Part shown: positions 17,416-33,299 of the stretch, piece by piece
Position numbering within the stretch: position 1 is the first letter of the stretch
Layout of the letters: each line of letters begins with the position of its first letter
Translations under genes and position numbers: made by a program
Source: Oscillospiraceae bacterium
GTDB lineage: Bacteria; Bacillota; Clostridia; Oscillospirales; Oscillospiraceae
Reading direction: 5' to 3'
NCBI GenBank assembly: GCA_902787755.1
Contig: CADAHL010000010.1
Span: 41,788-105,787 of the forward strand
DNA: 64,000 nt
Notes under the pieces: generated by a model
The model's database searches: none
Told to the model about the DNA's origin: nothing
The model's input: the letters and a program-made list of their open reading frames with translations, nothing else

Positions 17416-17435
17416 ACACAAATCCTGCAAGAGAC

Positions 17436-18398: not shown

Positions 18399-18404
18399 AT
18401 CAAG

Positions 18405-18529: not shown

Positions 18530-21500
18530 TCAGCAGGCAGAGCCTTTCTTCTTCAGCGTCCGGAGCGCGGCGCCAAGCAAAAGCAGGCTGGCGCTCAGCA
18601 TGACGCCCCAGAGCATCGGCTGCTCGCCGTCTCCGCTCTCGCTCTCCGCGTCGGGAACGTACACCCGCATCACGCCGGTGTTGTCCACGCCCAGAGATTC
18701 GGTGGGATCCAGGTTGGGATTGTCGTGCATGTCCTCCGCGGAGCGGATCTGGCCCAGGACCTTCTCGCTGCCGATCAGGCGCACATTGGGAACCGAGGCA
18801 AAGCGGTAATAGTAGTGGGCCTGATAGGTCTCAAACTGATAGCCCACGCAGTTCTCCCGCAGGATGTTGATCCGGTTGTCACCGATGGAGACGCAGGACT
18901 TATCCAGATGGAACCATTCACCGGTCTGAGGATCATAGTCGGCCACGGCGACGTACTCATCTCCGTACTTGAGCCACAGGCGAACGGTCTCCTTATACTC
19001 GGCGCTCAGAGGCGTGGCCAGATCGGGAACCCGGTCGGCCGGAGTCTCCCGGTCCCATACGTTCCAGTATCTGTTGGAAGTATTTCTGTCGAACTTTGCG
19101 GTATTGACATTATAGGCCCGGTCGTAGTACCGGAAGTCATAGCCGATATAGTCGATCTGGTAGTCCCCGGTGCCCAGCAGCACGGAGGGGTGCTCCCCCT
19201 CATGGGTCAGGCCAAAGGCCTCGTCATAGAGATAGAAGGTCTCGTCGCTGAAAATGAGGTGCATGGGGCTGCGGTAGTAATAGTACTGGACACAGCGCGG
19301 ATCGGTGGAAGGATCGGCATATTCCGGCACCTGATCAAAGGGCAGCGCCGCCTGGGCCGCCTGCATCTTGGCCTGGTAATCCGGGTCTCTGGACCAGGAC
19401 AGTCCGTAGCAGGTGGTCCCGATCGCGTAGTCCAGATTTTCCAGGTAGGTCTTTTTGCCGGTGATCAGATCGTCCAGGTCGTAGCGGGAATAGTAGCCGG
19501 CGACCATCCCCAGCTCCTGCAGGGCCACTCTGGGCCAGAGGTCAAGATCGGCCTGGTGACGGTACATACCGTCGGCCCACTTGAAGATGTCCACGTAGCC
19601 GGGGCTTCCGCCCGGATCAAAGATCGGCTTGTTCCAGTAGAAGATCCGGCGGTAGGTGGCGGAGGTGATCGGATCGTACTCGTCGTCCGGGATCACGTTG
19701 GCAACCACGTCGTTTACCAGCTTCCAGTGGTTCATATCATTCCAGAAGTCCTTGCGGACCGCTGTCAGAATGTAGTCATAGCGCATGCCGTAGTTGGTCT
19801 GGTCCTGCTGAGTGGCGCAATAGGTCTGCCGCTCCTCATCCCAGGTCATGAGACGAGGGCTGTTCTCGCCGGCAAAGCGCACCGCAATGGGGATCACGCT
19901 GTTGGCCGGGATCTCGCCGGTATGGTTCACTCCGCCTCTGGAGGCCTCAAGCAGCTCATAGACCAGATTGTCGCAGATCTCGAAGTCGTAAACCTGAGAG
20001 TTGTCGTTGATGCGGCTGCGGATCTCCCAGACCTGGTACAGATAATCATTGGGGTTGAACGCAACCTCGTTTCCGTTTTTGTCAACGATGTGCTGTGCGC
20101 CGATGGCGGCCTTCACAGCCTGGTCCGAAGGCGCGCTGCCCCAGGGCCAGCGCTCGTACACGTCGGGAACACGCTTCTCGGTGGTGTGGATGGTGGCCTG
20201 GGTGTTGATGTAAACCGGCCCGGCCTCGGCGTCCTTGACCCCGTCTTCATAGCCGATCACGTTGCCTTCGGTGTCGGTCAGGGTGGCATGGGCCGTCATA
20301 TGTGCGTTCACCAGCTCGGAGACGGTCATGTCGTGGTAGGCGAAGGTCTCGCTGTTGGTGATGTAGCTGAATTCCACAAAGCCGTCAAAGCCGGATTCAA
20401 TATCCCGGAAGTTGTAGATCACGATGTCGCCGTCTTCGTTCTCGTACCAGGCGAAGCTCATATCAGCGTCCAGCGGCAGGCCGTTTGCCAGAGCCTCCTC
20501 CACTTCCTCCCGGGACGGGATGGACATCTCCAGCCGGTCGTCGTACGCGCCATCGCGGTTGCGGATAATATGGGCGGGGATCGTGATCTTCACCGAGGCC
20601 TCGTCCGGATCGGGAGAGCCCAGGAAGGTGGCCACACCCGCGCTCGGGCTGTTCAGGCCGAAGGCCACGCGGAAATTGAAATGGTGGTCCGAATTGCGGC
20701 TGGCAGCCGTCCAGACGTACTCGTCCCCTTCATGGTCCACGATCTTGTTCGGATCCTCTCCGTCTGCGAGGGCGGCGGGATCATAGTACTGCTTCCCATC
20801 CACGTCGACCCACTCGCCGCCATAGAACACGGAAGCGGTCAGATAGGTGATCGGCGCATCGTCGCCGTCGCTCTGAGGCGGGTTCTCAAACAGCGCCGCG
20901 CGCAGCGGGGTCCACTCCGTGACCAGAGCGTCGGGAAGCGGATCCATGTGCAGCAGCTGGATCTGGACTTCTGTTGTTCCGCTCTCCGGCTCTTCGTAAG
21001 CAGCCGGCTCCGGTTCCGCCTTCGGCTCTACAAGAGCAAAGCGGCCGGGTGCCTGTACGGCAAAGCGGATCGTATCCGCAGTATCCTCCACCGCTTCGAA
21101 GGGCAGCGTTTCGACTGTGCCGTTTATATTTATATGGTAGAGTACCGCCCATTCGCTGCGCGTCGCCAGAGAGGCAGCCTGAACGGTAACCGTCAGAGTC
21201 TCGTCGGGGTCGATTCCTCCAACGGTCATCTCCCACAGCAGGACAGCACTGTCGGCTCCGACAGAGGCCAGGATACTCTCTTGGTCCTCAACATCGAACA
21301 GGGCCAGGGAGGCGCCGGAAGGCACGCCAAGCAGCGAGGCCCGGATCTCCTCCGCCTCGCCCTCATGAAGCACTGTCGCGATGTCCAACCGCACCGGCTC
21401 ATCCGTCTGTTCGGCGGTCTCGGGTTCCGTCACCTCGCTTTGAACGCTCAGTACGTCCGGTTCCGAAGCCACGATCGGCTCCGGTTCCGTTGTCTGTTCG

Positions 21501-21703
21501 TGTTCCGGAATCGGCTCCTCCCCCTGCTCTTCGGGCCTCACGGTGCCGCAGGCCAGGCAGATTCCGTCCTCGCCGTACTCATGCTCCGGACACAGCTGGC
21601 CCTCCCCGGCGTCGTCGGCAAACGCCATCGACGGCGCCATGCTGAACAGCATGACCAGCATCAGCATGAACGACAATACCTTCTGTCCGATTCTTCTCAC
21701 CAT
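18530..21703 (-). CDS. Large secreted, C-terminally membrane-anchored surface protein
   Basis: 1057 residues. A signal peptide (RIGQKVLSFMLMLVMLFSMA, cleavage near AFA-DDAGEG) is followed by a short Cys pattern CPEHEYGEDGICLACG, a Glu/Pro-rich linker to about 100, then a domain (about 105-220) with YHININGTVETLPFEAVED typical of gut adhesin modules. The long middle part is rich in aromatic and acidic residues and has no recognised fold. The C-terminus has one hydrophobic helix (LWGVMLSASLLLLGAALRTL) and the tail KKKGSAC. There is no LPxTG motif. Likely a cell-surface adhesin or matrix protein, but the function is unknown. Confidence 0.8.
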   Translation of the reverse strand: MVRRIGQKVLSFMLMLVMLFSMAPSMAFADDAGEGQLCPEHEYGEDGICLACGTVRPEEQGEEPIPEHEQTTEPEPIVASEPDVLSVQSEVTEPETAEQTDEPVRLDIATVLHEGEAEEIRASLLGVPSGASLALFDVEDQESILASVGADSAVLLWEMTVGGIDPDETLTVTVQAASLATRSEWAVLYHININGTVETLPFEAVEDTADTIRFAVQAPGRFALVEPKAEPEPAAYEEPESGTTEVQIQLLHMDPLPDALVTEWTPLRAALFENPPQSDGDDAPITYLTASVFYGGEWVDVDGKQYYDPAALADGEDPNKIVDHEGDEYVWTAASRNSDHHFNFRVAFGLNSPSAGVATFLGSPDPDEASVKITIPAHIIRNRDGAYDDRLEMSIPSREEVEEALANGLPLDADMSFAWYENEDGDIVIYNFRDIESGFDGFVEFSYITNSETFAYHDMTVSELVNAHMTAHATLTDTEGNVIGYEDGVKDAEAGPVYINTQATIHTTEKRVPDVYERWPWGSAPSDQAVKAAIGAQHIVDKNGNEVAFNPNDYLYQVWEIRSRINDNSQVYDFEICDNLVYELLEASRGGVNHTGEIPANSVIPIAVRFAGENSPRLMTWDEERQTYCATQQDQTNYGMRYDYILTAVRKDFWNDMNHWKLVNDVVANVIPDDEYDPITSATYRRIFYWNKPIFDPGGSPGYVDIFKWADGMYRHQADLDLWPRVALQELGMVAGYYSRYDLDDLITGKKTYLENLDYAIGTTCYGLSWSRDPDYQAKMQAAQAALPFDQVPEYADPSTDPRCVQYYYYRSPMHLIFSDETFYLYDEAFGLTHEGEHPSVLLGTGDYQIDYIGYDFRYYDRAYNVNTAKFDRNTSNRYWNVWDRETPADRVPDLATPLSAEYKETVRLWLKYGDEYVAVADYDPQTGEWFHLDKSCVSIGDNRINILRENCVGYQFETYQAHYYYRFASVPNVRLIGSEKVLGQIRSAEDMHDNPNLDPTESLGVDNTGVMRVYVPDAESESGDGEQPMLWGVMLSASLLLLGAALRTLKKKGSAC

Positions 21704-22140
21704 AGTCTTCCTCCCGGGTTATTTTCCACCCCACTGGGGAATTTTCGGGACCGCAAAACACACCCGCTTGTCCGCCTGTATGCTCTCCGTCCCGGTATAT
21801 TCGCGTCCTGTCCCGGGCGCGAACCGTAGTTTGTATCTCTTTCTTAACGTCTCCTGTAGCGACCGGCCCTTTTCAGGCCACAGGACACCAGATTACATAT
21901 ATAATAGTCTCTTGATTCACCATGCAAATGCACTGACCGTTAACAAACAAATTACAAATTTATACCGCTTTGTCGTAAATTCAGATCACCGGGCATTTTG
22001 GAAAGCCCTGTTCTTTCCTCTTCCCCCGATCAGGAGATCAACCGGGCTCCCCGAAAGCGCCTTTTCTTATCATAAAGGAACGTCCGCGCGAAGCTCATCG
22101 GATCTTCAGCGTGGTCGGCCCCATTCCTCCACTGAAACAA
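21704..22140 (-). promoter_or_regulatory. Long upstream region and leader of the surface-protein gene
   Basis: A 437-bp region without a supported gene. On the minus strand a weak promoter (TTGCAT then TATATA, 18-bp spacer, near 21895-21925) would give a leader of about 185 nt. The leader contains a paired segment CCTGTGGCC...GGCC...ACAGG around 21845-21880, and GGGAGGAAG before the ATG. It is AT-rich near 21890-21990. No known riboswitch was recognised. Confidence 0.35.
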
Positions 22141-22192
22141 AAAAAAGCGCTGCCTCCCGACAGCGCGGAGCTGTTTGGAAGCAGCGTTTTTT
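22141..22192 (-). terminator. Terminator of the RNF/EET operon
   Basis: On the minus strand CGCTGCTTCC pairs with GGGAGGCAGCG around a smaller inner hairpin, then T7. It begins at the end of the last gene (EetB-like) of the operon. Confidence 0.85.
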
Positions 22193-22689
22193 CAAATTTC
22201 CAGTTTGATTCTTTGGACCATAATGGCCGATACGACGCCGATGACCACACCGGCCAGCACGCCGGAGAGGATCAGAAAAGGCAGATAGTAACGAATGATA
22301 TCCGTCTCCAGCAGGATACAGGCCATGAGGATCTGTCCCACGTTGTGGAGAACCCCGCCGGCCACACTGACGGCCACGGCGGAAAATTTCTCCGAGTGCT
22401 TCAGCAGGATCATCCCCAGAAGGCTCAGCACCGCGCCGGCCAGGCTGTAAAACAGGCTTGCAAAATTGCCGAACAGGACGCTGATGAGCAGCACCCGGAT
22501 CAGGGAGATCCCGGCGGCCTCTTTCCAGCCCAGCTTGTACAGGGCGAAGACCACCGCAATGTTCGCAAGACCCACCTTGACGCCGGGGATGGCCACGAAG
22601 GCCGGGATCTGGCTTTCAAGGAAGGACAGGACCATAGCCAGGGCGATCGTCAGGGCCATGACCGTCAGTTTTTTCGTGCGCATCGGCAT
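22192..22689 (-). CDS. eetB: EetB-like membrane protein (Gx transporter / Hpre_diP_synt_I family)
   Basis: A 165-residue protein with five to six helices. It has the family signature FLESQIPAFVAIPGVKVGLANI and a Gly-rich GGVLHNVGQI stretch. The family was once called heptaprenyl diphosphate synthase component I, later Gx transporter; its Listeria member EetB is required for flavin-based extracellular electron transfer. ATG 22689 overlaps the stop of the preceding EetA-like gene (TGATG). No prenyl transferase component II lies next to it. Family call firm; role inferred from the RNF/ApbE operon. Confidence 0.85.
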   Translation of the reverse strand: MPMRTKKLTVMALTIALAMVLSFLESQIPAFVAIPGVKVGLANIAVVFALYKLGWKEAAGISLIRVLLISVLFGNFASLFYSLAGAVLSLLGMILLKHSEKFSAVAVSVAGGVLHNVGQILMACILLETDIIRYYLPFLILSGVLAGVVIGVVSAIMVQRIKLEI

Positions 22690-23069
22690 CACCCCACCAC
22701 GATATCCACGCCGGGCTGGCTGCCGCCCACCACGGTCACGGTTACCCGGTTGGGCAGGCAGATGATCGCCTGCCCTTCCCGGCTGATCCTTCCCTGGGAG
22801 ATGCAGATCTTATCCGGGCAGTCCGCCTCTTCCATCCAGGCCGCACCGTCCCGGATCACCAGAACATTGGTGCCGCCGTTGAGCGGATAGGTCCCGTTCT
22901 CGGTCAAGGCGTGCCGCTCCGTCTCCACCCCGTCGACCCGGACGACCACAAAGCCGTCCTTCGCGCCCCGGGAGGACACCAGCAGCCAGAAGGCTCCGGC
23001 CAGAATCAGCAGCCCCAGAATCAGGATCAGATCGTTGCGAAGTCTGTTTTTGTTTCCCGCGCTGTTCAT
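22689..23069 (-). CDS. eetA: EetA-like protein (NusG domain II family, membrane-anchored)
   Basis: A 126-residue protein with one N-terminal helix (LILILGLLILAGAFWLLVSS) and an extracytoplasmic NusG_II-type beta domain: VVRVDGVETERHALTENGTY, then CPDKICISQGRISREGQAIICLPNRVTVTV. The CPDKIC...C cysteine pattern is typical of this family. Listeria EetA belongs to the same family and acts with EetB. The start at 23069 overlaps the RnfA stop by one base (TGATG), and the gene occupies the slot where rnfB is normally found. Confidence 0.87.
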   Translation of the reverse strand: MNSAGNKNRLRNDLILILGLLILAGAFWLLVSSRGAKDGFVVVRVDGVETERHALTENGTYPLNGGTNVLVIRDGAAWMEEADCPDKICISQGRISREGQAIICLPNRVTVTVVGGSQPGVDIVVG

Positions 23070-23611
23070 CAGAAGGCAAGCAGCGCCATGGACACGATGG
23101 CGGCCGCCAGCAGCGCGATGGGCAGACCGCGGAAGGCCTTGGGCACATACTGCTCCTGGATCCGGCTCTGGACCCCGGCCATGAGATAGAGAGCCACCAG
23201 GAAGCCCAGGCCGACTCCCAAAGCGCTCAGCAGGGTCTCCACGAAACCCAGGGCGGCGGTATTCACCGCCAGGCCCAGCACCGCGGTGTTCAGCGCGATC
23301 AGGGGGAAGAAGCCCCCAAGAGGCTGTTTGAAGATGGCGCCCAGGGCCCATACCAGGATCAGGATCACGGCCACGAAGCACAGCAGCTGCAGCGCACCCA
23401 GATTCAGGGGCGCCAGCACAAAGCTGTTCAGCGGCCAGGTGATCAGCGCGCTCAGCACGGTCACCAGGGTCACGCACAGCCCCAGAGGCAGGAGCTTATC
23501 CTCCTTCTTGCTGAAGCCCAGCAGCGGAGTCAGGCCCAGGAACTTCTCCAGGGCGTAGTTGTTGGCCAACACGCCGCCCAGGAAAATCAGAAGCAAAGTT
23601 TTAAAATCCAT
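23069..23611 (-). CDS. rnfA: RNF complex membrane subunit RnfA
   Basis: Six-helix membrane subunit of the RNF/Nqr ion-translocating oxidoreductase, 180 residues. It opens with LLIFLGGVLANNYALEKFLGLTPLLG, the conserved NN-containing half-helix that binds the intramembrane Fe-S cluster; the matching half in the second repeat is PLIALNTAVLGLAVN. In RnfA the cluster cysteines are normally in these half-helices; here the typical C positions are less evident (N/A), which deserves checking. It follows RnfE with 3 bp between. Confidence 0.88.
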   Translation of the reverse strand: MDFKTLLLIFLGGVLANNYALEKFLGLTPLLGFSKKEDKLLPLGLCVTLVTVLSALITWPLNSFVLAPLNLGALQLLCFVAVILILVWALGAIFKQPLGGFFPLIALNTAVLGLAVNTAALGFVETLLSALGVGLGFLVALYLMAGVQSRIQEQYVPKAFRGLPIALLAAAIVSMALLAF

Positions 23612-23614
23612 GGC

Positions 23615-24214
23615 TCATTCTCCTTCCTGCGGATCGCCCGCAGCCTGAGCGGTAAAGCCCTCCAGAGCCATCCGGTCCGGGAAGAGTCTCAAGCACAGGG
23701 CGGCCACAAAGGCATAGATCATCAGTCCGCCGGGGGCCTTCACCAGCACCGGGATCTTATAGTCGGCCAGGAAGTCGATGGAAAGCCCGGCAAAGCTGGC
23801 GGAACCGAAGATCTCCCGCACAGCGGCGGTAAGGAACAGAAGCAGCGTAAAGCACAGTCCGGTGAGCAGGTTCTCCTTCAGGGAGGGGGCCTCGGCCTGC
23901 CGGAAGGTCAGCAGGTTTACTGCCAGCACCGCCAGGTACACGCCCAGCATTTGGAACACGTTGGGCAGGAAAGCGGCAAGCAGCAGCTGCAGCAGAGATA
24001 CAAAGCCCGCGGTCACCAGGATGGCGGCGGGAACTTTGGCGCTCTGAGGGAGGATCTTTCCCAGCAGGGACATCACCAGACCGGACAGCAGCATGGTGAT
24101 CAGCGCGGCGCAGCCCATACCCAGGGCGGCGCGGACGTCAGTGGTGGCGCCAAGAGCGGGAGCGGCGCCCAGGAACAGGATCAGCAGCGGATCCAGCGTT
24201 TTCTTATCCTTCAT
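23615..24214 (-). CDS. rnfE: RNF complex membrane subunit RnfE
   Basis: Paralogue of RnfA that forms the other half of the membrane Fe-S cluster site, 199 residues with six helices. It opens with LDPLLILFLGAAPALGATTDVRAALGMGCA, the family consensus although the usual NPV/C residues are altered, and continues with LPNVFQMLGVYLAVLAVNLLTF. The start at 24214 lies inside the end of rnfG, with GGAGGCGAGAGCA upstream, so translation is coupled. Confidence 0.87.
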   Translation of the reverse strand: MKDKKTLDPLLILFLGAAPALGATTDVRAALGMGCAALITMLLSGLVMSLLGKILPQSAKVPAAILVTAGFVSLLQLLLAAFLPNVFQMLGVYLAVLAVNLLTFRQAEAPSLKENLLTGLCFTLLLFLTAAVREIFGSASFAGLSIDFLADYKIPVLVKAPGGLMIYAFVAALCLRLFPDRMALEGFTAQAAGDPQEGE

Positions 24215-25523
24215 TGCTCTCGCCTCCATTCTCAGTGACTTCCTCGGCGGAGCCCAGCTCCACGATCGGACGCAGCAGGTCGTAGGCGTTAAAGATGTCG
24301 TTCACCGCGGTGTTCACGGCCTCGGTGCTCATGGTGGCGCCGGAAATGACCGCCTGCTCGCCGGTATAGGCGTCCTTCGTCAGGCCTGCGAAGCCTTCCT
24401 TGTAGGAGGGTTCATCCAGGGTGTAGTTGGTAAAGTACTCCTTGATGAGGATCAGCTCGTCGGCGTTCATGGCCACGATCGCGCCGTTTTCATCCAGCAC
24501 GTAGTAAGTCACGATGGCCTGGTTGGAATATCCGAAGCTCCGGGCGGACAGGGCCAGATATGTGTTGGCGCCGTCCTGCAGCAGATAAGCGCCGGTGACG
24601 GAGCTGTAGACGCCCTCCAGGGAGACGGGTGTCAGGGTGGCCTCGGGGAACATGCGGCCGAAGGCCTTGGCGTCGGACTGGCTGAAGTCGGTCATCGCGG
24701 CCTTGGCGTCCTCCACCAGAGGAGCCAGCAGGGCCTGGTCGACGTCGACCTTGCCCGCGTCCACGCTGTAGGCCATGGGATAGCCGGCGGCGTTCACGAT
24801 CACCAGCACCATGTGCTCGCCGTCGGGGACGATATAGGCCGCGCCGCTGCCCAGAGTGGAGAGCATTCCGCCGGCGGCGGTGGGCTCTTCCGCGATCTGC
24901 ACAACCGCAGCGTTGTTGGCCATTCCCGGGAAGACCAGGGGCAGCAGCTCACGCAGGATCTGATCCTCGCCCTTCACGCCTTCCTTCACCAGACCGTTCT
25001 CGATCAGGGCCGCAAAGCCGTCGGAAACGGCGTTCTTGAAGGCGGAGGAGGAATAGGTCACGCCCGCGACCAGCGCCACGTCCGGCATGGCGGAATCCTG
25101 GCCCACATAGGTCAGGGGGTAGCTGTCCACGCCCATATCCTTGGTGTCCGGATATTCGTCCACCTGGGCACCGGTGATCTTGCCCTCAGCGTCCACGCCG
25201 AAGGTCAGGGTCATAGGCTCGCCGGTGTAGCCCTGGGTGGTGCTGAGCTTCAGCGCGTAGCCCAGGCCGGAGGTCTCAGCGTAGATGCCAGTCACGGTGG
25301 CGGGCACATTGCTGAGACCGGAGGCGACGGGATCCGCCGCGTCATAGATCTGCTCGAAGCCCTTGGCCTCGGGCATTACCGCCATCAGGGGAGCCAGGGC
25401 GGCGGCGGTATTGTTTTTCTCGATCAGGGGGGCGGCAAACACGTTGACCCCCAGGGTCAGCCCGGCGAAGACCGCGAAGATCAGCACCAGGGCCAGTACG
25501 GATTTCAGAATGTCATTTTTCAT
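24204..25523 (-). CDS. rnfG: RNF complex subunit RnfG with duplicated FMN-binding domain
   Basis: Membrane-anchored flavoprotein subunit. It is 439 residues, about twice the usual RnfG. One N-terminal helix (VLALVLIFAVFAGLTLGV) leads into two FMN_bind-like halves. The first (about 50-195) ends in LVAGVTYSSSAFKNAV and the second (about 230-425) in AVISGATMSTEAVNTAV. The second has the canonical SGAT flavinylation motif; the first aligns as AGVT, keeping the acceptor threonine. The start is ATG 25523, 8 bases after GGGAGG, not the GTG at 25532. ApbE in the same operon would attach the FMN. Confidence 0.88.
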   Translation of the reverse strand: MKNDILKSVLALVLIFAVFAGLTLGVNVFAAPLIEKNNTAAALAPLMAVMPEAKGFEQIYDAADPVASGLSNVPATVTGIYAETSGLGYALKLSTTQGYTGEPMTLTFGVDAEGKITGAQVDEYPDTKDMGVDSYPLTYVGQDSAMPDVALVAGVTYSSSAFKNAVSDGFAALIENGLVKEGVKGEDQILRELLPLVFPGMANNAAVVQIAEEPTAAGGMLSTLGSGAAYIVPDGEHMVLVIVNAAGYPMAYSVDAGKVDVDQALLAPLVEDAKAAMTDFSQSDAKAFGRMFPEATLTPVSLEGVYSSVTGAYLLQDGANTYLALSARSFGYSNQAIVTYYVLDENGAIVAMNADELILIKEYFTNYTLDEPSYKEGFAGLTKDAYTGEQAVISGATMSTEAVNTAVNDIFNAYDLLRPIVELGSAEEVTENGGESNEG

Positions 25524-25524
25524 C

Positions 25525-26451
25525 TCAGACACCTCCCAGGGGTTTCACGCGGGTCAGGCGCTCCAGATAAGGCGAGAGAATGTTCATGCACAGGATGGAG
25601 AAGGACACGCCCTCCGGATAGGAGAAGAATTGACGGATCACCACAGTGAGGATGCCGCAGCCCAGGGCGAAGAGCATTTTGGCTCTCAGGCTCAGGGGCG
25701 TGGAGGCATAATCGGTGGCCATGAAGATGGCGCCCAGGAACAGGCCGCCGCCCAGGGTCTGATACAGGGCCAGCTGGAAGCTGCCCTCGAAAATCAGAGA
25801 CAGGACGAAAACGGTGCCGATGAAGATGGCGGGCACCTGCCAGCGGATCACCTTGCGGAGGATCAGATAGCCGCCGCCCAGGATCAGGGCCAGCACGCAG
25901 GTCTCGCCGATGGCGCCGCCGCGCAGGCCCAGGAACATATCCAGCAGGCTGGGGAGTTCTTCCGTGGCGCCCTTGCCCAGCAGCTCCAGCGGAGTGGCGG
26001 AGCTCACGGCGTCCACGCCCTGGGGCATAGCGCCGCCGGCAACGGCGGAGAAGGCCAGAAGCATGAAGATACGGGCCGTGATGGCGGGGTTGGCAAAGTT
26101 CCGGCCCAGGCCGCCGAAGAGGCATTTGACCACTACGATGGCGAAGACGGAACCCACGGCGCACTGCCACAGAGGCACGTTGGTGCTCAGGTTCAGGCCC
26201 AGCAGCAGGCCGGTGACCACAGCGCTCAGATCACTGACGGTGAGGCTTTTCCGGGTAATGACGCAGAAGAGAGCTTCCGCGAATACGGCAGCCAGGCAGC
26301 AGGTCAGCAGGATCCATAGGGCCTTCATCCCGAAGATCCAGACCGCAGCCACACAGGCGGGCAGCAGGGCCAGGATCACGTCCAGCATGATCCGTCTGCT
26401 GTTGTCCTTGCTGTGAATATGCGGGCCGGCAGACATGATGGGTTTATCCAT
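25525..26451 (-). CDS. rnfD: RNF complex membrane subunit RnfD
   Basis: Integral membrane flavoprotein subunit, 308 residues with about nine helices. It opens with AGPHIHSKDNSRRIMLDVILALLP, the classic RnfD/NqrB start, and has the FMN attachment motif in AVSSATPLELL (acceptor threonine) and GGLGRNFANPAITAR. It starts 4 bp after rnfC. Confidence 0.93.
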   Translation of the reverse strand: MDKPIMSAGPHIHSKDNSRRIMLDVILALLPACVAAVWIFGMKALWILLTCCLAAVFAEALFCVITRKSLTVSDLSAVVTGLLLGLNLSTNVPLWQCAVGSVFAIVVVKCLFGGLGRNFANPAITARIFMLLAFSAVAGGAMPQGVDAVSSATPLELLGKGATEELPSLLDMFLGLRGGAIGETCVLALILGGGYLILRKVIRWQVPAIFIGTVFVLSLIFEGSFQLALYQTLGGGLFLGAIFMATDYASTPLSLRAKMLFALGCGILTVVIRQFFSYPEGVSFSILCMNILSPYLERLTRVKPLGGV

Positions 26452-26454
26452 GGC

Positions 26455-27798
26455 TTACTTCCCCCCTTCTTTCTGCGCTTTCTCCCAGTTGCGGATCCAG
26501 CCCCGGGCGGCGGTGTTGTTCTCCGCCAGCGGCCGGTGGGCCGGGCACACGTAGGAGCAGCAGCCGCATTCCATGCAGACGTTGACCTGTTCCTTCTGCA
26601 GGATGGCGGCGCGCTGGGCGTCCATCCCCTCGGGCAGCTCCATGGCGTTGGAGAAAGCGACCGGGTTCAGGCCCAGCGGGCAGACGGAGACGCAGCGCCC
26701 GCAGTGGATGCAGGGCGTAGGCTCGGCCTTCTGCGCGTCCTTCTGATTCATAATGACAACGGCGTTGGTGGCCTTGAGGATCACGGAATCCAGGGACTCC
26801 TGGGTCTTGCCCATCATCGCCCCGCCGAAGATGATCTTGCCCGGCTCCTCTTTCAGGCCGCCGCAGGCCTCCACCACATCGCGCACAGACACGCCGATGG
26901 GGACGATCAGGTTCTTGGGTTCCTTCACCGCGGAGCCCTCCACGGTGATGATCCGCTCCACCATGGGCATGCCGGTGACAAAGTACTCGGCCATCTTCGC
27001 CAGAGAGGAGACGTTGATGATCAGCACACCCAGAGAAGCCATACGCTGGCCCTTCTCCACCACCTTGCCGGTGGCGTTATACAGCAGCACCTGCTTGGCG
27101 CCCTGGGGATAGACGCTGCCAAGCTCCATGATCTTCACGGCCGGGTCGTCCCGGAACCGCTCCTTCAGAGCCTGGATGGCGTCGGGCTTGTTCTTTTCGA
27201 TGCCGATGATATATTCCTCGCTGCCCAGGTATTTCTTGAGCAGCTCGATCCCCTTCTGGATCAGATCGCCGTGCTCCAGCATGAGACGGTGGTCACTGGT
27301 GATGAAGGGCTCGCATTCGGCGCCGTTGATGAGGATGGTCTGGATATGGGCCTTCTGGGCCGCGGAGAGCTTTGCCCACACGGGATAAGCCGCGCCTCCC
27401 AGACCCACCACGCCGCTCTGCCGTACGCACTGGAGAAACTCATCCAGATTCGCAGGCTCGGGCAGCTTCAGGTCGGGACACTTTTCCATCTTGCCGTCGG
27501 ATTCGATGCGGATGGCCGTGGCCTTCCGTCCGCCGCTCATATAGGGCTCGATGGCCTTGACGGTGCCGGAGACCGAGGCGTGGATGTTGGAGCTGCCGCG
27601 GTCCTTCTCGGCCGCGATCAGCTGCCCTACGGTCACATGATCTCCCACCTGCACCACCGGCTCGGAATGGACGCCGGAGTGGGACGTCATGGGAGAGCAG
27701 GGGATCAGCACTTCCTTGGGCAGAGGCATGCGCACGGCCGCCATCGGCGCCGTGCTTTTCAAATGGGGTAATTTCAGGCTCGAGATGGTTCTTTTCAA
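26455..27798 (-). CDS. rnfC: RNF complex peripheral subunit RnfC
   Basis: Cytoplasmic NADH-interacting subunit, 447 residues. It contains the N-terminal barrel-sandwich region, the nucleotide-binding part with GVVGLGGAAYPVWAK and INGAECEPFITSDHRLMLE, a SLBB-like region, and two [4Fe-4S] motifs CIHCGRCVSVCP and CMECGCCSYVCP near the C terminus. The start is TTG 27798 with AGGAGGCGGG 8 bases upstream. It is the first Rnf gene after apbE. Confidence 0.94.
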   Translation of the reverse strand: MKRTISSLKLPHLKSTAPMAAVRMPLPKEVLIPCSPMTSHSGVHSEPVVQVGDHVTVGQLIAAEKDRGSSNIHASVSGTVKAIEPYMSGGRKATAIRIESDGKMEKCPDLKLPEPANLDEFLQCVRQSGVVGLGGAAYPVWAKLSAAQKAHIQTILINGAECEPFITSDHRLMLEHGDLIQKGIELLKKYLGSEEYIIGIEKNKPDAIQALKERFRDDPAVKIMELGSVYPQGAKQVLLYNATGKVVEKGQRMASLGVLIINVSSLAKMAEYFVTGMPMVERIITVEGSAVKEPKNLIVPIGVSVRDVVEACGGLKEEPGKIIFGGAMMGKTQESLDSVILKATNAVVIMNQKDAQKAEPTPCIHCGRCVSVCPLGLNPVAFSNAMELPEGMDAQRAAILQKEQVNVCMECGCCSYVCPAHRPLAENNTAARGWIRNWEKAQKEGGK

Positions 27799-27844
27799 TA
27801 CTCCCGCCTCCTAATCGTGATACATGGTATTCAAAACTCTTTGC

Positions 27845-28921
27845 TCAGTGATTGGCTTCCTCCGGGGCGATCAGCTCTTCGAGCCCCGGGGTCCAGCGCT
27901 GCTCCCCGTCGGGCATGATCCACAGGACCTCCACGCCCTCCAGGCTCTCTGCCAGGGCGCAGGACTCCTCATAGGGCATGCAGTACAGGGCGGTGGAGAG
28001 GGCGTCGGCCAGGCCGCTGTCCTTTGTCACCACGCTGATAGCGGCGTAGTAGGCCGCCGGATACAGGGTGTCCTTATCAATAATATGGTGGTAGCGCTGC
28101 CCGTCTACGGTATAATACCTCTCGTAGGCGCCGGAGCTGACACAGGCGGTATCCTGCAGCCGCAGCCGTAGGGCGAAGTCACCGTCGTTGGGCTGCAGCG
28201 GATCCCGGATCCCGGTGACCCAGCCGGTACCGTCCGGCCGGGAGCCCAGGATGCGGATATTCCCGCCGATGTTGAGCACATAGCTCTCCACGCCCTCCGC
28301 CTCCAGGGCCCGGGCCGCCATCTCGGTGGCGTAGCCCTTGCCGACAGCGCCCACGTCGATGGACGCCTGCGGGTCGGAGATCCGCGCGGTCCCCCGCTCT
28401 TCATCCAGCTCCAGAAGCTCGATGCCGCAGTGTCGGGCCGCCTCCTCCAGGACCTGAGGCTCCGGCAGTCTGGCCTTCGTCGGATCGGCGGAGGCCTCCT
28501 CCCGGCAATCGTGCCACAGATGCAGCACCGAGCCCAGCATCACGTTCATCTCTCCCCCGGTCAGCTCGTAAAGCTGGCGGCAGTAGAGCAGAAACTCCAT
28601 CAGTTCAGGGGCGATCTCCAGCGCTTCTCCCCCGGCGTTTCTGTTGAGCGTGCACAGGTTGTTCTTCCCGGAATATTCATGGTAGATGTCAAAGAGCTGA
28701 TGGTATTCTTCCAGAATATGCGAAACTTCGGCAGAACGGTCCGCAAACTGTTCTGCCGAATCTCCTGCGTAGCTATAGACAAACGAGACGGTATCAAAGA
28801 ATCCGAAATAGGACTTTCCCACCGGCTCACTGCTTTTCTCCGCTCTGCTCCCGCAGCCGCAGAGAGCGGCTGCGAGACACAGGGCGCAGCAGAGGGCGAC
28901 GATCCTTTGAACACGTTTCAA
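27845..28921 (-). CDS. apbE: FAD:protein FMN transferase ApbE, lipoprotein form
   Basis: Extracytoplasmic enzyme that covalently links FMN to Thr/Ser residues of RnfG, RnfD and similar flavoproteins, 358 residues. A lipoprotein signal (VALCCALCLAAALCGCG) precedes the ApbE domain: MNVMLGSVLHLWHDC, IDVGAVGKGYATEMAARAL, VLNIGGNIRILG, and TACVSSGAYERYYTVDG with HHIIDKDTLYPA and SGLADALSTALYCM for the magnesium and FAD site. It begins with TTG 28921 behind GGCGGAGG. Its location between the lipoprotein and rnfC points to these as its clients. Confidence 0.94.
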   Translation of the reverse strand: MKRVQRIVALCCALCLAAALCGCGSRAEKSSEPVGKSYFGFFDTVSFVYSYAGDSAEQFADRSAEVSHILEEYHQLFDIYHEYSGKNNLCTLNRNAGGEALEIAPELMEFLLYCRQLYELTGGEMNVMLGSVLHLWHDCREEASADPTKARLPEPQVLEEAARHCGIELLELDEERGTARISDPQASIDVGAVGKGYATEMAARALEAEGVESYVLNIGGNIRILGSRPDGTGWVTGIRDPLQPNDGDFALRLRLQDTACVSSGAYERYYTVDGQRYHHIIDKDTLYPAAYYAAISVVTKDSGLADALSTALYCMPYEESCALAESLEGVEVLWIMPDGEQRWTPGLEELIAPEEANH

Positions 28922-28946
28922 GTCGGTATCCTCCGCCGGAAGGATC

Positions 28947-29948
28947 TTACTTGGCGTTGCCGGCAGCCTTGACCAGAACGTTGATCATGCCGTCCACGCT
29001 GATGGAGACGGAGGCGTACAGGGTCTCGTCGGCGACGACATGGTGGCCCTCTTCGTTCACAGTGGTCTCAGTGCTCTCCAGCTCAGCGGGGGTCTTGCCA
29101 ACGGCGTAGGCCACGAAGGAAGCGGCCTGCTCATACCACTCGTGAGTGGCGTCGGAGAAGGCGACCATGTTGTAGCCTTCCTTCAGCTCGCGCTTGGTAC
29201 CGTTGAACTTGGTCTCAACGATCTCACCGGCGGTGTTGATGGTGATCTGGGGCTGGGTGGCGTCGGTCAGGGCGGCCAGGATCTTACCGTCAGATCCCAG
29301 AACCACAGCGCCAAACTCGGAGTACATCTTCACAACACCGTCAGCGTCGGCGGTGGCGGCGGTGGACTCGTCAGCGGTGGAGTTGATGGCCAGGCCCAGG
29401 GTGAAGGTGTCGGCAGTGGAGAAGCTCATGCCCTGCTCGTCGTTGCAGGCCTTGGCAACAGCTTCCTGGAAGTCGCTGATGGAGATGGAGACGGATGCGT
29501 ACAGGGTCTCGTCGGTGGCAACGGTGTGGCCCTCGTCGTTGACGGTAGTGGCGATGCCCAGGATCTCGTCGGCAGTCTTGCCGATGCAGTACTGCTCGAA
29601 GTTGTCGGCCTGCTGATACCACTCCAGAGTGGCGTCGGAGAACTTGACCATGTTGTAGTCGTCGCCCTTCTCGTACTTGGACAGGAAGGTGGCGTCGGCA
29701 GCGACAGCGCCGTCGGTCACGTCCATCTTGTTCTGGGCGCAGTCGATCTGGCAGGCAACAATCTTGTTGTCCTTGTCCAGAACCACGGCGGCCACAGTGG
29801 CGTCGACCTGGGCGTTGTTGGTGTCAGAGCTGTCCATGTTCAGGGTAATGCCCATACCCAGCTTGTACTCGGCAGGAGCGGAGCCGCCGCAGGCGGCCAG
29901 CGCCAGGACCATCGTCAGTGCCAGGAGCATTGCGATCATCTTTTTCAT
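28947..29948 (-). CDS. PplA-like lipoprotein with internal duplication
   Basis: First gene of the operon; 333 residues. Lipoprotein signal with cleavage before C20 (LAACGG) and then two similar halves of about 130-150 residues. Each half has GxDYNMVxFSDATxEWYxQA, GKTxxE(I/L), TTVN(D/E)EGH and ETLYASVSIS. This order resembles the flavinylated halves of Listeria PplA (YxM, EWxxQ, GKT, then a (S/A)GAT motif). Here the aligned motif is ASVS in both halves, so covalent FMN on Thr is not expected; Ser is possible. Probably an extracellular electron carrier or a structural partner of the operon's flavoproteins. Family assignment moderate. Confidence 0.7.
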   Translation of the reverse strand: MKKMIAMLLALTMVLALAACGGSAPAEYKLGMGITLNMDSSDTNNAQVDATVAAVVLDKDNKIVACQIDCAQNKMDVTDGAVAADATFLSKYEKGDDYNMVKFSDATLEWYQQADNFEQYCIGKTADEILGIATTVNDEGHTVATDETLYASVSISISDFQEAVAKACNDEQGMSFSTADTFTLGLAINSTADESTAATADADGVVKMYSEFGAVVLGSDGKILAALTDATQPQITINTAGEIVETKFNGTKRELKEGYNMVAFSDATHEWYEQAASFVAYAVGKTPAELESTETTVNEEGHHVVADETLYASVSISVDGMINVLVKAAGNAK

Positions 29949-30011
29949 TTTGTTCGATCTCCTATTTTCAAGATATTGTATCCCGATTTCCTCTTCCTCG
30001 GGATCATGGAT

Positions 30012-30040
30012 ATTTTACCATCGGGCAGGCAAATAGTCAA
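30012..30040 (-). promoter_or_regulatory. Promoter of the RNF/EET operon
   Basis: On the minus strand TTGACT (30035-30040) and TAAAAT (30012-30017) are 17 bp apart, about 64 bp upstream of the lipoprotein start. Two further TTGACT copies lie at 30054-30059 and 30079-30084. The rest of 29949-30270 is AT-rich and holds no gene. Confidence 0.72.
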
Positions 30041-30270
30041 TTGTTTAACGGGTAGTCAAATGCACAAATCTGGGCAAAAGTCAACGGAAAAAACGGGCTT
30101 TTCCCGTCAAAATGCCGAAAGACTGACTTTCCCCTTTTTCGGCGGAAAAGTGATATATTCCTGTAAAATTTTGTCGTTAGCGAAACTTAACTCTATGATT
30201 TTTCACCCTGTTCGTCTCTCTGTTCCCAATCCCTTCAGCATTCTGCCGGAGGAGTCCGAAGGCGCGGAAA

Positions 30271-30299
30271 GCGCCGCGGAGAGGGTTTCTCCGCGGCGC
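30271..30299 (-). terminator. Hairpin after the PIG-L gene
   Basis: 12-bp perfect stem GCGCCGCGGAGA with a 5-base loop, 12 bp beyond the PIG-L stop. The T-run on the minus strand is short. Confidence 0.65.
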
Positions 30300-30310
30300 C
30301 CGGGATGCTC

Positions 30311-31084
30311 TTATTTTCCCGCCTCGGGGAGGCAGTGCATGTGGGTCTGGCCCAGGACCCGGAAGCCCTCGGCCCGGCCCTTCATAGAGCGAAGGCCGAA
30401 ATCCAGACTGCGCAGCGTCAGATAGGCCCGGATGGCCTTTCTCTCCCCGCAGCCGGGAGGAAACTGGCTCCTGTGACAGTCAAAGATGGCCTTCTCCTGG
30501 GTCTTCCGCCAGGGTCCCACCGCCACATAGCGATTGGGCTTCGCCGTCATATACAGGGCCAGGGCCTGCACCGGCGCGGCCTTTGCGCCGTACCGGGCCA
30601 TGATGTCTCCGTATGGCGCAAAGCAGGCAAGCTGCATGGCCGCCTCGCCCACGTTCAGATGGTCCCGGTGACACTCGCTGCTGACTCTGGGATCGGGGGC
30701 GAAGATCAGCTCCGGACCAAAGTCCCCGATCACCCGGGCCATGCCCTCCAGCAGCTCCTGTTGGGAGTAGAAGCCCCCGTCGCAGAGATCCAGAAAGCGC
30801 AGATCGGAGACGCCCAGCAGTCGGGCGCTCTGTCTGGCCTCCTCCTTCCGGAGCGCCGCCAGCTTATCTCCCCGGATCCCCTCCGGGGCGTTGCCGCTGC
30901 CGTAGCGTCCGTCTATACAGACAAGAAAGCAGATCTCCTTCCCCTCCGCGGCCAGCCTCGCCGCCGTAGCCCCGGCGCCGATCTCAATATCGTCCGGGTG
31001 GGGCCCGATGAACAGCACCCGCCGGAAGCTCTCCGGCCTGGGGATGGGAGCGGCGAAGCGCAGGACAGCCCCGGTCAGGCTCAT
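30311..31084 (-). CDS. PIG-L family N-deacetylase
   Basis: Zinc-dependent deacetylase of the LmbE/PIG-L group, 257 residues, cytoplasmic. The metal motif PHPDDIEIGAGAT is near residue 28, followed by RKEEARQSARLLGV and the second metal site with CHRDHLNVGEAA. These enzymes remove N-acetyl groups from amino sugars or their conjugates. It overlaps the preceding symporter gene by four bases (ATGA), so uptake and deacetylation of one glycoside is a reasonable inference. Confidence 0.88.
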   Translation of the reverse strand: MSLTGAVLRFAAPIPRPESFRRVLFIGPHPDDIEIGAGATAARLAAEGKEICFLVCIDGRYGSGNAPEGIRGDKLAALRKEEARQSARLLGVSDLRFLDLCDGGFYSQQELLEGMARVIGDFGPELIFAPDPRVSSECHRDHLNVGEAAMQLACFAPYGDIMARYGAKAAPVQALALYMTAKPNRYVAVGPWRKTQEKAIFDCHRSQFPPGCGERKAIRAYLTLRSLDFGLRSMKGRAEGFRVLGQTHMHCLPEAGK

Positions 31085-32574
31085 GCCTTGCGCTCCTGCA
31101 ATTCCCTGCAGATCCGGTCGTACTCGGCCTCGTCCAGCTTGTAGTGCTTCTTGTACAGGATATAGGACAGGAACATGAGCACGCAGGGGATCACGGTCAT
31201 GACCAGCAGCAGGCCCAGGCTCTGGCCGGGCTGCACACCCTGGAGCAGGGCGGAAATCTCGCTGGCCTTCCGCTCGGCGGTGATTTCGCCGGCGTTGGCG
31301 GCCTGCTCAAGGCCGGAGATGCCGTTGGTGTACTGGAGGATGCCGGAGACCATATAGGTGCCGGTGGCGATGGCCACGGTCAGAGCCGAGGCCAGCTTGG
31401 TCAGGAAGGGCCGCAGGGAGGACACGATGCCCTCATCCCGGGTGCCGTGCTTGTACTCGTTGTACTCCACGGTGTTCATGATGGAGATCATCATGATGAG
31501 ATAGAAGCCGTACTGGCCGAAGTTCGCCAGCATGTAGCCCAGGGTCAGGAACACGAACTTCAGGTCATAGCCGGCCACAAAAGCAGCGCCCTTGGACAGC
31601 GCCAGAGAGGGCACCAGCATCAGGGCATAGCCGATGCCGGAGACGATCATCAGCACGTCCATCAACTTCTTGCGCTGCATGTGACGGGAGATGGCGGGAT
31701 AGAAGAGCATGAGCAGGCCGGTGACCATCATGCCCACCATCTGGAACACGGTGAAGAAGCCGCCCTCATAGCCGAACTCCACGTAGATATAGGTCTGGCC
31801 CACGCCGGCCATCACGATGCCGTTGCCGATCTGCTGCAGCAGGAAGATGACCGCGATCCACACCAGCTGATCGTTGCCGGTGATGGTGGTCCAGATCTTC
31901 TTGAAGCTCACGGGAGGCACCGGCTCGTCATTGTAATTGCGCTGCTCCTTGACGCCGAAGATGGTGATCGCCAGGAACAGTGGCCCCAGGATAGCCATGA
32001 TCAGGGCAATGGCGCCGTAGGCGGTCACCGCGTTGCCGCCGATGGTGTTCTCGCCGGCGGTGAACATGGGGATGAAGGCCGCAGCCGCCATGCCGCCAAT
32101 ACCGGCGAACAGGGTGGCCCGGGAGGTAAACTGGTTGCGGGTGTTGGCGTCCGAGCTCAGGGCCGGCACCATGCCCCAGTAGGAGATGTCGTGCATCGTG
32201 TAGGTGATGGAGTAGAGGAAGTACATCAGTCCGAAGAACCAGACGAAGGCCCAGCCCTCCAGGCGTACGTTGAAGGTCAGATAGATGACCACGGAGGTGG
32301 TGACGATGCCGATGGCCAGCCAGGGCTTGAACTTGCCCCACTTGGTTCGGGTGCGCTCGATGATATTGCCCATGATGGGGTCGTTCAGGGCGTCAAAAAT
32401 TCTGGCGGCCACCATGATGCCCGTAATGGCGGACAGCTGAGCGGCAGTCAGATGCCGGGTAAAGAGCACGAAGGTCAGCAGATAGCTGGTCACCAGATTG
32501 TAGATCATATCTCTGCCGATGGTGCCCAAGGGGAAGGCGATCAGGTTTCTCCTGGTAATGCGTTTGTCTTCCAT
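31081..32574 (-). CDS. GPH-type sugar:cation symporter
   Basis: Second GPH-family transporter of the window, 497 residues and 12 helices. Family motifs are AARIFDALNDPIMGNIIERTR and DISYWGMVPALSSDA. It is co-translated with PIG-L and has a 17-bp spaced promoter at 32622-32650. Longer than usual because of a loop near residues 415-445. Confidence 0.9.
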   Translation of the reverse strand: MEDKRITRRNLIAFPLGTIGRDMIYNLVTSYLLTFVLFTRHLTAAQLSAITGIMVAARIFDALNDPIMGNIIERTRTKWGKFKPWLAIGIVTTSVVIYLTFNVRLEGWAFVWFFGLMYFLYSITYTMHDISYWGMVPALSSDANTRNQFTSRATLFAGIGGMAAAAFIPMFTAGENTIGGNAVTAYGAIALIMAILGPLFLAITIFGVKEQRNYNDEPVPPVSFKKIWTTITGNDQLVWIAVIFLLQQIGNGIVMAGVGQTYIYVEFGYEGGFFTVFQMVGMMVTGLLMLFYPAISRHMQRKKLMDVLMIVSGIGYALMLVPSLALSKGAAFVAGYDLKFVFLTLGYMLANFGQYGFYLIMMISIMNTVEYNEYKHGTRDEGIVSSLRPFLTKLASALTVAIATGTYMVSGILQYTNGISGLEQAANAGEITAERKASEISALLQGVQPGQSLGLLLVMTVIPCVLMFLSYILYKKHYKLDEAEYDRICRELQERKA

Positions 32575-32621
32575 TGCTTCATCTCCCGTATGTATGTATT
32601 GGTTTCGCTTTGCCTGTGTTT

Positions 32622-32650
32622 ATTGTACTCCACCGGCGCTCCCGGTGCAA
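32622..32650 (-). promoter_or_regulatory. Promoter of the symporter/PIG-L operon
   Basis: Minus-strand TTGCAC (32645-32650) and TACAAT (32622-32627), 17-bp spacer. Confidence 0.62.
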
Positions 32651-32684
32651 GGAGAATCGGTGTCAATCCCGGTTTTTTCCGGGC

Positions 32685-33287
32685 TCAGTCCTCCCGGCGC
32701 TCGGCGAAGTACAGGCCCACCTGCTTGAGCGCCTCGATCACGTCGGAGACCTTCCGGTCTTCCAGGGTGATGGCCCGGGACAGACCGGGGGTTTCCCGGG
32801 AAATCAGGTCCCAGGGCCCCTTCAGATCCGGGATCTCCTTCAGCTGTGCGGCTTCGAAGACCTTCCTCAGCGCCCGCAGATCCCCGCTGTGGCTGAAGGC
32901 GTAGATCTCGCCGAATTTGTATTTGCCCAGCTCGTTGCCGCGCTCGGAGGCGAAGCCGAAGCGGACCATTCCGTCGTGGATCAGCAGCGGGCCGAACAGG
33001 TCCAGCAGGTGTACCGCGTCGTTTTCTGAGATCCCGTCCAGGTAGTACACATCCACATGGAATTTTTCAATCGTTCCCTCGGGCAAGGGATTTTCATCCC
33101 GCAGATTGCTCGGCTGTTCCAGAAACAGAGAGAACAGCTCGCTGCCCTCCCGGCGCAGGAAGGTCCGAAACAGGCTGTCCAGCCGCTCGGCGCTGACATT
33201 GGCGTAGAGCCAGCTGCCGTCCCGGCGGTAGCCCTCCTGCAGGCTCTCGGAGCCGGGGATCTGAGCCCCCTGGATGATTTGATACAT
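32685..33287 (-). CDS. Protein of unknown function, 200 residues
   Basis: Soluble, mixed alpha-beta protein with no signal peptide or membrane segment. Notable stretches are IEKFHVDVYYLDGISENDAV, LLIHDGMVRFGFASERGNE and KYKFGEIYAFSHSGDLRALRKVF. AGGGAGAACG precedes the ATG at 33287. It starts 12 bp after the NUDIX gene and is presumably co-transcribed with it. I do not recognise the family; the reading frame is supported by start site, codon style and the tight spacing. Confidence 0.72.
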   Translation of the reverse strand: MYQIIQGAQIPGSESLQEGYRRDGSWLYANVSAERLDSLFRTFLRREGSELFSLFLEQPSNLRDENPLPEGTIEKFHVDVYYLDGISENDAVHLLDLFGPLLIHDGMVRFGFASERGNELGKYKFGEIYAFSHSGDLRALRKVFEAAQLKEIPDLKGPWDLISRETPGLSRAITLEDRKVSDVIEALKQVGLYFAERRED

Positions 33288-33299
33288 CGTTCTCCCTCC

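Follow-up and report, generated by a model that had tools for sequence, protein, structure and literature searches.

The nine-gene operon without rnfB

The stretch of DNA analysed in this work, referred to below as the window, is 64,000 nucleotides long and is part of contig C10 of an Oscillospiraceae genome (GCA_902787755.1; 2.54 Mb in 86 contigs, 92% complete). It carries nine uninterrupted minus-strand genes in the order lipoprotein-apbE-rnfC-rnfD-rnfG-rnfE-rnfA-eetA-eetB (Table 1), an operon for a complex related to RNF, the textbook energy-conserving enzyme. A first-pass annotation, made from the sequence alone, had placed these genes at this position, strand and order, and the Pfam matches (obtained for all except the lipoprotein) and NCBIfam matches agree with it, including the assignment of EetA and EetB to their families (PF07009, 6.5e-29; PF07456, 3.5e-41). 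The tight packing that it described was also found: the largest intergenic gap is 46 bp, TGATG junctions with one shared base each join rnfA to eetA and eetA to eetB, the first base of eetA being the final one of the rnfA stop codon, and rnfE, with its start at 24214, overlaps rnfG by 11 bp (an alternative start lies at 24229).

No rnfB was found in the nine-gene operon, either by gene calls or by Pfam and NCBIfam matches of the window proteins. This absence had been claimed before, and it holds equally for 58 of the 60 loci, described below, in which lipoprotein, rnfE and rnfA genes stand together. An rnfB hidden inside the operon was considered and rejected. The scores of RnfA, RnfE and RnfG (125.9, 86.9 and 44.7 bits) are far under the curated NCBIfam cut-offs (229, 213 and 102 bits, respectively), which marks these three proteins as divergent members of their families.

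Loss of the cluster ligands from RnfA and RnfE

In the RNF of Acetobacterium woodii, RnfA C25 and C113 and RnfE C25 and C108 hold an intramembrane [2Fe-2S] cluster (PMC11889175; PMC12174285). Reduction of this cluster drives Na+ binding and the inward/outward switch, and mutants in the cluster cysteines lost autotrophic growth and ferredoxin-dependent NAD+ reduction (PMC11889175). In the window complex, T28 and T109 occupy the places of C25 and C113 in the alignment to A. woodii RnfA (9eri_A, E=2.7e-31), and A18 and L101 occupy those of RnfE C25 and C108 in the alignment to Clostridium tetanomorphum RnfE (7zc6_E). The RnfA positions were matched to A. woodii by direct alignment and the RnfE positions by spacing; the cysteine spacings of 88 and 83 in the complete RNF of the same genome equal those of A. 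woodii.

This loss extends to the whole set of 58 rnfB-less operons, 38 of which have none of the four cysteines and 20 only one, RnfE C25. Counted with the window, RnfA C25 is found in 0/59, RnfA C113 in 0/59 (one row gapped; the L111 sequence ends before this site), RnfE C108 in 0/59 and RnfE C25 in 20/59. The corresponding counts in rnfB-bearing controls were 27/27, 27/27, 26/27 and 27/27. All four cysteines are kept in L121 and L135, both of which have rnfB and a lipoprotein operon, and also in other RNFs of the set (L071 and L101, with rnfB, and L102, cut by a contig end). Among the 30 best loci of the family genomes, 25 of the 26 that bear rnfB show four cysteines, the rnfE frame being broken in the remaining one (L016), and the four rnfB-less loci (window, G004, G109 and G052) show none.

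RnfA N112 is kept in 56/59 and T110 in 2/59; RnfA L108 and T110 and RnfE N107 have drifted in the set. The RnfA model resembles A. woodii RnfA (Foldseek E=2.4e-6), with a predicted local distance difference test score (pLDDT) of only 72.

Retained cofactor sites and selection

The predicted cofactor sites that remain are strictly conserved. All eight Fe-S cysteines of RnfC, each of which aligns with the solved RnfC 7zc6_C, are present in 59/59 sequences, as are the sampled residues of its PF01512 (FMN-binding) domain, which we take to be the flavin mononucleotide (FMN) and NADH residues on the basis of the Pfam domain. In RnfD, the threonine predicted to bind covalent FMN lies in DAVSSATPLE and aligns with A. 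woodii T156, and an Asn and an Asp, invariant in 59/59, align with N123 and D249, the riboflavin residues of A. woodii RnfD (PMC11889175). Thr or Ser at the predicted flavinylation sites is likewise found in 59/59 for each of RnfD, RnfG (two sites) and the lipoprotein (two sites); the predicted sites of the window lipoprotein are S154 and S315.

The ratio of nonsynonymous to synonymous substitution rates (dN/dS) was estimated for five genes in 15 hand-picked close pairs, giving medians of 0.067 for rnfC, 0.114 for rnfD, 0.135 for rnfE, 0.154 for rnfA and 0.224 for the lipoprotein gene; the highest single values were 0.34 (rnfE) and 0.55 (lipoprotein). By this measure, rnfA and rnfE are under purifying selection. 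Invariant cofactor sites together with low dN/dS point to selective loss of one branch of the complex rather than to decay.

Table 1 Features of the window discussed in the text
Feature	Position	Strand	Description
Promoter-like site	30012..30040	-	TTGACT-17-TAAAAT, TG preceding second hexamer; upstream of lipoprotein gene; sigma-70-like consensus scan only
lipoprotein	28947..29948	-	333 aa, two ~150-aa repeats; no Pfam/NCBIfam family
apbE	27845..28921	-	FAD:protein FMN transferase, lipoprotein-type leader; PF02424 6.2e-63
rnfC	26455..27798	-	TIGR01945 397.8 bits, above cut-off; PF01512 FMN/NADH domain; two [4Fe-4S] cysteine sets intact
rnfD	25525..26451	-	TIGR01946 275.5 bits, above cut-off; RnfD/NqrB Pfam PF03116 5e-103
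rnfG	24204..25523	-	439 aa; PF04205 FMN_bind 2e-12 in two stretches; T156, T397
rnfE	23615..24214	-	Rnf-Nqr family Pfam 6e-24; without cluster cysteines
RnfE Ala18 codon	24161..24163	-	Lost ligand C25; 7zc6_E alignment
RnfE Leu101 codon	23912..23914	-	Lost ligand C108; 7zc6_E alignment
rnfA	23069..23611	-	Rnf-Nqr family Pfam 2e-28; without cluster cysteines
RnfA Thr28 codon	23528..23530	-	Lost ligand C25; 9eri_A alignment
RnfA Thr109 codon	23285..23287	-	Lost ligand C113; 9eri_A alignment
eetA	22689..23069	-	NusG domain II protein; PF07009 6.5e-29
eetB	22192..22689	-	Energy-coupling factor (ECF) S-type protein; PF07456 3.5e-41, ECF_trnsprt 1e-4
Terminator-like hairpin and T run	22147..22166	-	Intrinsic type, 3' of eetB; pattern match only

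Distribution and origin of the operon

Of 120 family genomes searched with the window RnfA, 102 match at E<=1e-8. Inspection of the 30 best loci showed rnfG-rnfE-rnfA-eetA without rnfB in the four mentioned above and rnfB in the other 26; three of these four have eetB, the nine-gene order recurring in G004 and G052 and eight genes, without eetB, in G109. In addition, a profile of the lipoprotein was run against 84,980 species genomes, and the best 80 of 82 loci were analysed; half-RNFs without the lipoprotein, as we shall call rnfB-less complexes of this kind, fall outside such a set. Lipoprotein, rnfE and rnfA genes lie on one strand in 60 of the 80 loci. The 20 others, many cut by a contig end, were dropped because rnfA was not seen in a lipoprotein operon on one strand; one of them, L101, has a divergent rnfB-bearing RNF. 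The gene order without rnfB, which the first-pass annotation proposed to look for in other genomes, was thus found at 58 loci besides the window, so that it is not a product of chance. The full nine-gene order is present in 46 of them, seven have no detected eetB, four have neither eetA nor eetB detected (one of these, L111, cut by a contig end), and in L090 rnfD was called twice. The genes flanking the nine recur only as clade-wise sets.

The carriers are mostly rumen and gut metagenome-assembled genomes (MAGs) named Oscillospiraceae, Ruminococcaceae or Clostridia, with one Erysipelotrichaceae (L107). Judged by genome names, no cultured half-RNF carrier occurs among the best 80 of 82 loci. 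The sole isolate, Hungatella hathewayi WAL-18680 (L137), has a relative of the lipoprotein with apbE, eetB and another FMN_bind-like protein, and no other RNF gene was detected within its 20.9-kb stretch.

In a tree of RnfC and RnfD, the 62 half-RNF rows (59 without L178, L197 and L198, duplicates of L108, L117 and L124) together formed one clade with a Shimodaira-Hasegawa-like approximate likelihood ratio (SH-aLRT) support of 100; the tree came from a quick search with midpoint rooting, no bootstrap and some long branches, and L039-L041, from the same genomes as L060, L076 and L098, were left out. The clade adjoins rnfB-bearing RNFs of like type (L121, L101, L042, L043, L052, L054 and L055) and is distant from L044, the complete RNF of the window genome. 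The operon of L121 is identical in order except for an rnfB placed after rnfA and ahead of eetA, and it retains all four cysteines. From these relationships, the simplest account would be a single loss of rnfB and of the cluster from an existing lipoprotein-apbE-RNF-eetAB operon.

Some other RNF-like loci were also seen. Separate clusters with no rnfB nearby occur at L045 (G089), L046 (G039), L048 (G030) and L049 (G027); one to four cluster cysteines are missing from them, rnfE was not found in L046, and no eetAB or lipoprotein gene was present in the stretches read. L050 (G032) has no rnfB nearby and keeps four cysteines, and L051 is cut by a contig end.

rnfB, quinones and possible acceptors in the genomes

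One rnfB above the cut-off was detected in the window genome. It lies on contig C8 in a second operon, rnfC-rnfD-rnfG-rnfE-rnfA-rnfB, with all cluster cysteines present, and the remaining matches to the rnfB profile are below the cut-off. The first-pass annotation had regarded an rnfB elsewhere in the genome as telling against its reading. Literally, such a gene exists, but it is part of a separate, complete RNF, and the objection fails in substance because the window complex has no cluster that the C8 RnfB would reduce. The window complex is thus a divergent RNF that the genome encodes in addition to the complete one.

The same question was put to 45 genomes with the lipoprotein operon, 44 with a half-RNF and that of L121. 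rnfB was found at E<=1e-15 in 36 of them, once in L121's own operon, and passed the curated cut-off in 35. G521 has a fragment covering the N terminus of rnfB (E=1.8e-15, 106-aa frame). In the other eight, all matches of a search at E<=0.001 fell on the ferredoxin-like part and stayed below the cut-off; among these, the half-RNF operons of G402 (98% complete) and G391 (90%) were read directly.

Members of the UbiA family make menaquinone, and DmkA belongs to this family. UbiA was not found in 42/45 genomes and matched in 3/45; the window genome likewise gave no UbiA match, and all 14 control genomes were positive. A quinone-linked chain was therefore rejected as the general case. The absence of Ndh2 and DmkA/DmkB noted in the first pass is also confirmed for the operon, in which Ndh2 and DmkB were searched, and agrees with the lack of UbiA in the genome. 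In 17 of the 45 genomes that were searched for FMN_bind, RnfG of the half-RNF is the only such protein in eight, with one match in G467, G402, G391, G513, G517, G526 and G527 and two in one frame in G501. To judge by these profiles and within MAG completeness, the half-RNF module can apparently exist where RnfB, quinone and any further FMN_bind reductase are missing.

NrfA was found in 16/45 genomes, every one of them within the window's own clade of 22 rows (16 of the 19 tested there, 0/26 elsewhere), and in 13 of these 16 an [ST]GA[ST] motif precedes CxxCK in one frame. At L173:6410-8035 (G000 contig C9), a 541-aa protein combines an N-terminal membrane segment, an FMN_bind domain (SGAT) and pentaheme NrfA (PF02335, 4.9e-75); it is followed by two genes whose products, by their sequences, are presumably ResB and CcsA. 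This membrane-anchored FMN_bind-NrfA fusion, a nitrite reductase, is a possible acceptor in the clade of the window. At L071:2018-8449, an rnfB-bearing RNF (rnfC, rnfD, rnfE, rnfA and rnfB detected) lies divergently beside the half-RNF with a pentaheme nrfA directly after rnfB, so NrfA may be fed by an rnfB-bearing RNF. Given this arrangement and the restriction to 16/45 genomes, FMN-NrfA was rejected as a general acceptor.

Additionally, an NfnA/NfnB-like pair adjoins the half-RNF in nine loci (L090, L098, L102, L105, L107, L117, L124, L129 and L139). The NCBIfam names are FAD/NAD-binding protein and NADPH-dependent glutamate synthase, and Nfn is the name that we assume for the pair. The genomes of L090, L105, L117 and L124 have only ferredoxin-type rnfB matches, and that of L107 only a fragment.

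The lipoprotein, EetA and EetB

Both lipoprotein repeats (~150 aa) bear a motif similar to D-x-x-L-x-A-[GST]-[CV]-[ST]. In this variant of [ST]GA[ST], the last Ser/Thr is invariant (59/59) and the other places show few exceptions; the AlphaFold model has a pLDDT of 87.7, and the SGAT of 2kzx_A aligned on this motif. FMN-bind2 domains of ~160 aa have been described to pair into a two-flavin unit (PMC10979944). We propose that the lipoprotein may be a two-flavin unit of a similar, FMN-bind2-like type, as its repeats and motif suggest.

EetB is described as the ECF-type subunit for export of flavin adenine dinucleotide (FAD) that supplies ApbE, the Listeria eetA deletion had wild-type EET (extracellular electron transfer) activity, and 572 genomes of Clostridia have eetB near Rnf genes (PMC9973259). 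The first-pass annotation had taken eetA and eetB as the mark of a merger with the Listeria EET chain; on the evidence of this source, that part is not supported, and eetAB was rejected as proof of EET. Because of the reported role of EetB and the presence of eetB near RNF genes, eetAB in this operon most likely supply FAD to ApbE. In the present set, rnfB-bearing RNF operons with eetAB include L042, L043, L054 and L121. The three cysteines of the CPDKIC and ICLPN motifs of EetA (window 22689-23069) are kept in 55/55 sequences.

Signals and neighbouring genes

The promoter-like and terminator-like sites bracket the nine genes, both as consensus matches only, the number of terminator-like sites in the region being not above that in shuffled sequence. 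No Rfam family reached threshold over 17000-34000. Downstream of the operon, at 18530-21703 on the minus strand, lies a 1057-aa open frame; by eye, its start resembles a signal peptide and its C-terminal segment is hydrophobic.

Discussion

The loss of the RnfA/RnfE ligands together with RnfB would amount to the loss of the whole ferredoxin branch of RNF. Taken with the retained carriers, it makes it probable, in our judgement, that the operon encodes a ferredoxin-independent half-RNF that carries electrons from NADH to the outside via flavins. The ancestor would have been an RNF already encoded beside apbE, eetAB and the lipoprotein gene, in a lineage that then lost RnfB and the RnfA/RnfE [2Fe-2S] cluster, which normally comes next after RnfB and takes its electrons across the membrane. 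In the complex that was left, NADH would reduce RnfC, with its FMN and two [4Fe-4S] clusters, and electrons would pass to RnfD, with riboflavin and covalent FMN, at which they would cross the membrane, then to the two covalent FMN domains of RnfG, and from there to the lipid-anchored two-flavin lipoprotein and to extracytosolic acceptors. ApbE would attach the FMNs, EetB (with EetA) would export FAD, and RnfA/RnfE may serve as a cluster-free membrane dimer that holds RnfG and RnfD together or that conducts ions. The path, the direction and the acceptor are what we infer; of these, the path is well constrained by the sequences. An rnfB-less variant with outward flow of RnfC-derived electrons through flavins had been suggested in the first pass. 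This suggestion is supported by the ligand loss, the kept RnfC and flavin sites, the single clade and the genomes without rnfB and mostly without UbiA.

Several observations weigh against this reading. The direction of electron flow is not readable from sequence. RnfE C25 persists in 20/59 operons, and L112 has a cysteine one place off; at RnfE E115, which is a Na+ residue in A. woodii, 55/59 sequences have Glu, and at R67 47/59 have Lys or Arg, so transport of ions may continue. For the lipoprotein, neither Pfam (PF04205 included) nor Foldseek at E<=1e-3 gave a match; its link to FMN_bind is one weak PDB profile match (2kzx_A, E=5e-4), its motif departs from [ST]GA[ST], and hhalign against RnfG was weak, with the motif outside the alignment. 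Of the 58 operons, seven also had no detected eetB and four neither eetA nor eetB detected. Moreover, rnfB is present elsewhere in 36/45 genomes, where sharing of RnfB is possible, and nearly all of the genomes are MAGs, in which absence of rnfB could reflect incompleteness.

If RnfB were indeed shared, the window operon would encode an RNF of the usual kind, supplied with RnfB by the complete second operon of its genome; the 36 genomes with rnfB, the fragment in a 37th and the single rnfB of the window genome allow for this. We consider it very unlikely, since at least three of the four RnfA/RnfE ligands are lost in the window and in 58/58 other rnfB-less operons, and eight genomes, G402 and G391 among them, have only ferredoxin-type matches. 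An RNF copy in decay, maintained through linkage until it disappears, would account for the missing RnfB and ligands and for the divergence of RnfA, RnfE and RnfG, but the gene order held across many species, the low dN/dS medians (0.07-0.22) and the invariant RnfC, RnfD and flavin sites render it scarcely credible.

The half-complex could also run in reverse, taking up electrons from reduced flavins, Fe(II) or a partner cell for the formation of NADH. RnfC-RnfD-RnfG is the NAD+-reducing leg of ordinary RNF, which runs both ways (PMC12174285). However, the operon revealed no protein for electron uptake, the carriers are mostly gut anaerobes that would be expected to need NADH sinks, and in the clade of the window a nitrite reductase linked to flavin could plausibly serve as one; reversal thus seems quite unlikely. 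Unlikely too, though less so, is an RnfA/RnfE that still pumps ions, driven by the flavin redox changes of RnfD and RnfG or by another cofactor in place of [2Fe-2S]. The purifying selection on both genes, the retention of E115 and R67 and the fold match of the RnfA model, at its low pLDDT, would fit such a pump, as would the loss of autotrophic growth in A. woodii R67A and E115K mutants of RnfE, although E115A grew like the wild type (PMC11889175). Against it, Na+ binding and the switch in A. woodii are driven by the very cluster that is missing here (PMC11889175), and RnfA L108 and T110 and RnfE N107 have drifted.

The half-RNF differs from each of the systems to which it is related. It shares with RNF (RnfABCDGE, ferredoxin:NAD+ oxidoreductase) the homologues of RnfC, RnfD, RnfG, RnfE and RnfA, the Fe-S cysteines of RnfC and the flavinylation sites of RnfD and RnfG; it lacks RnfB and at least three of the four [2Fe-2S] cysteines, its RnfG has two FMN_bind domains, and its operon adds the lipoprotein, ApbE and usually EetAB. 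EetA, EetB and ApbE/FmnB are likenesses to the flavin-based EET locus of Listeria; the PplA protein of Listeria has two FMN_bind domains, and the two-repeat lipoprotein is reminiscent of it. In contrast to that locus, the operon has no Ndh2 or DmkA/B, RnfC and RnfD stand in place of Ndh2 and quinone, and the lipoprotein is not recognised as FMN_bind. The RNF-eetAB operons of Clostridia likewise have eetA-eetB after the RNF genes (PMC9973259).

The Na+-translocating NADH:quinone oxidoreductase (NQR) has been proposed to stem from an rnf operon that was duplicated and lost its rnfB (PMC4014512). NQR keeps the cluster of subunits D and E, has lost the RnfC cofactors and has gained NqrF; the half-RNF does the reverse: its RnfC retains the cofactor residues, the RnfA/RnfE cluster is lost, and NqrF, sought among the genes of the operon, is not encoded there. 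The unidirectional NQR/RNF-like systems, described as an NqrB-NqrF fusion with an FMN_bind protein (PMC8238504), resemble the half-RNF in a single transmembrane leg and a proposed NAD(P)H to extracytosolic FMN route. They differ in the fusion, as the window RnfD has PF03116 only, without PF00175, and RnfC, RnfD, RnfG, RnfE and RnfA are separate. RNF was called there by the presence of RnfB (PMC8238504), and the same key genes were used in PMC9973259, so rnfB-less clusters would fall outside. No description of an RNF without RnfB and the cluster was found in the literature searched (open-licence papers, without supplements).

With little more than even confidence, we lean towards a third functional RNF/NQR class that is the reciprocal of NQR: an NADH:extracytosolic-flavin oxidoreductase free of quinone and ferredoxin, found in uncultured gut and rumen Clostridia, with cluster-free RnfA/RnfE. 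Under this reading the complex would form a module for respiration or EET that is complete in itself, as in G402 and G391, where no rnfB, UbiA or other FMN_bind protein was detected. The half-RNF mirrors the origin by rnfB loss proposed for NQR, and it would escape surveys in which RnfB defines RNF. As a conserved natural complex without the cluster and the ferredoxin entry, it offers a direct test of the roles of the cluster, by which RNF links electron transfer to the pumping of Na+, of RnfA/RnfE and of RnfC-RnfD-RnfG, and it suggests that quinone-less anaerobes of the rumen and gut may dispose of electrons from NADH outside the cell.

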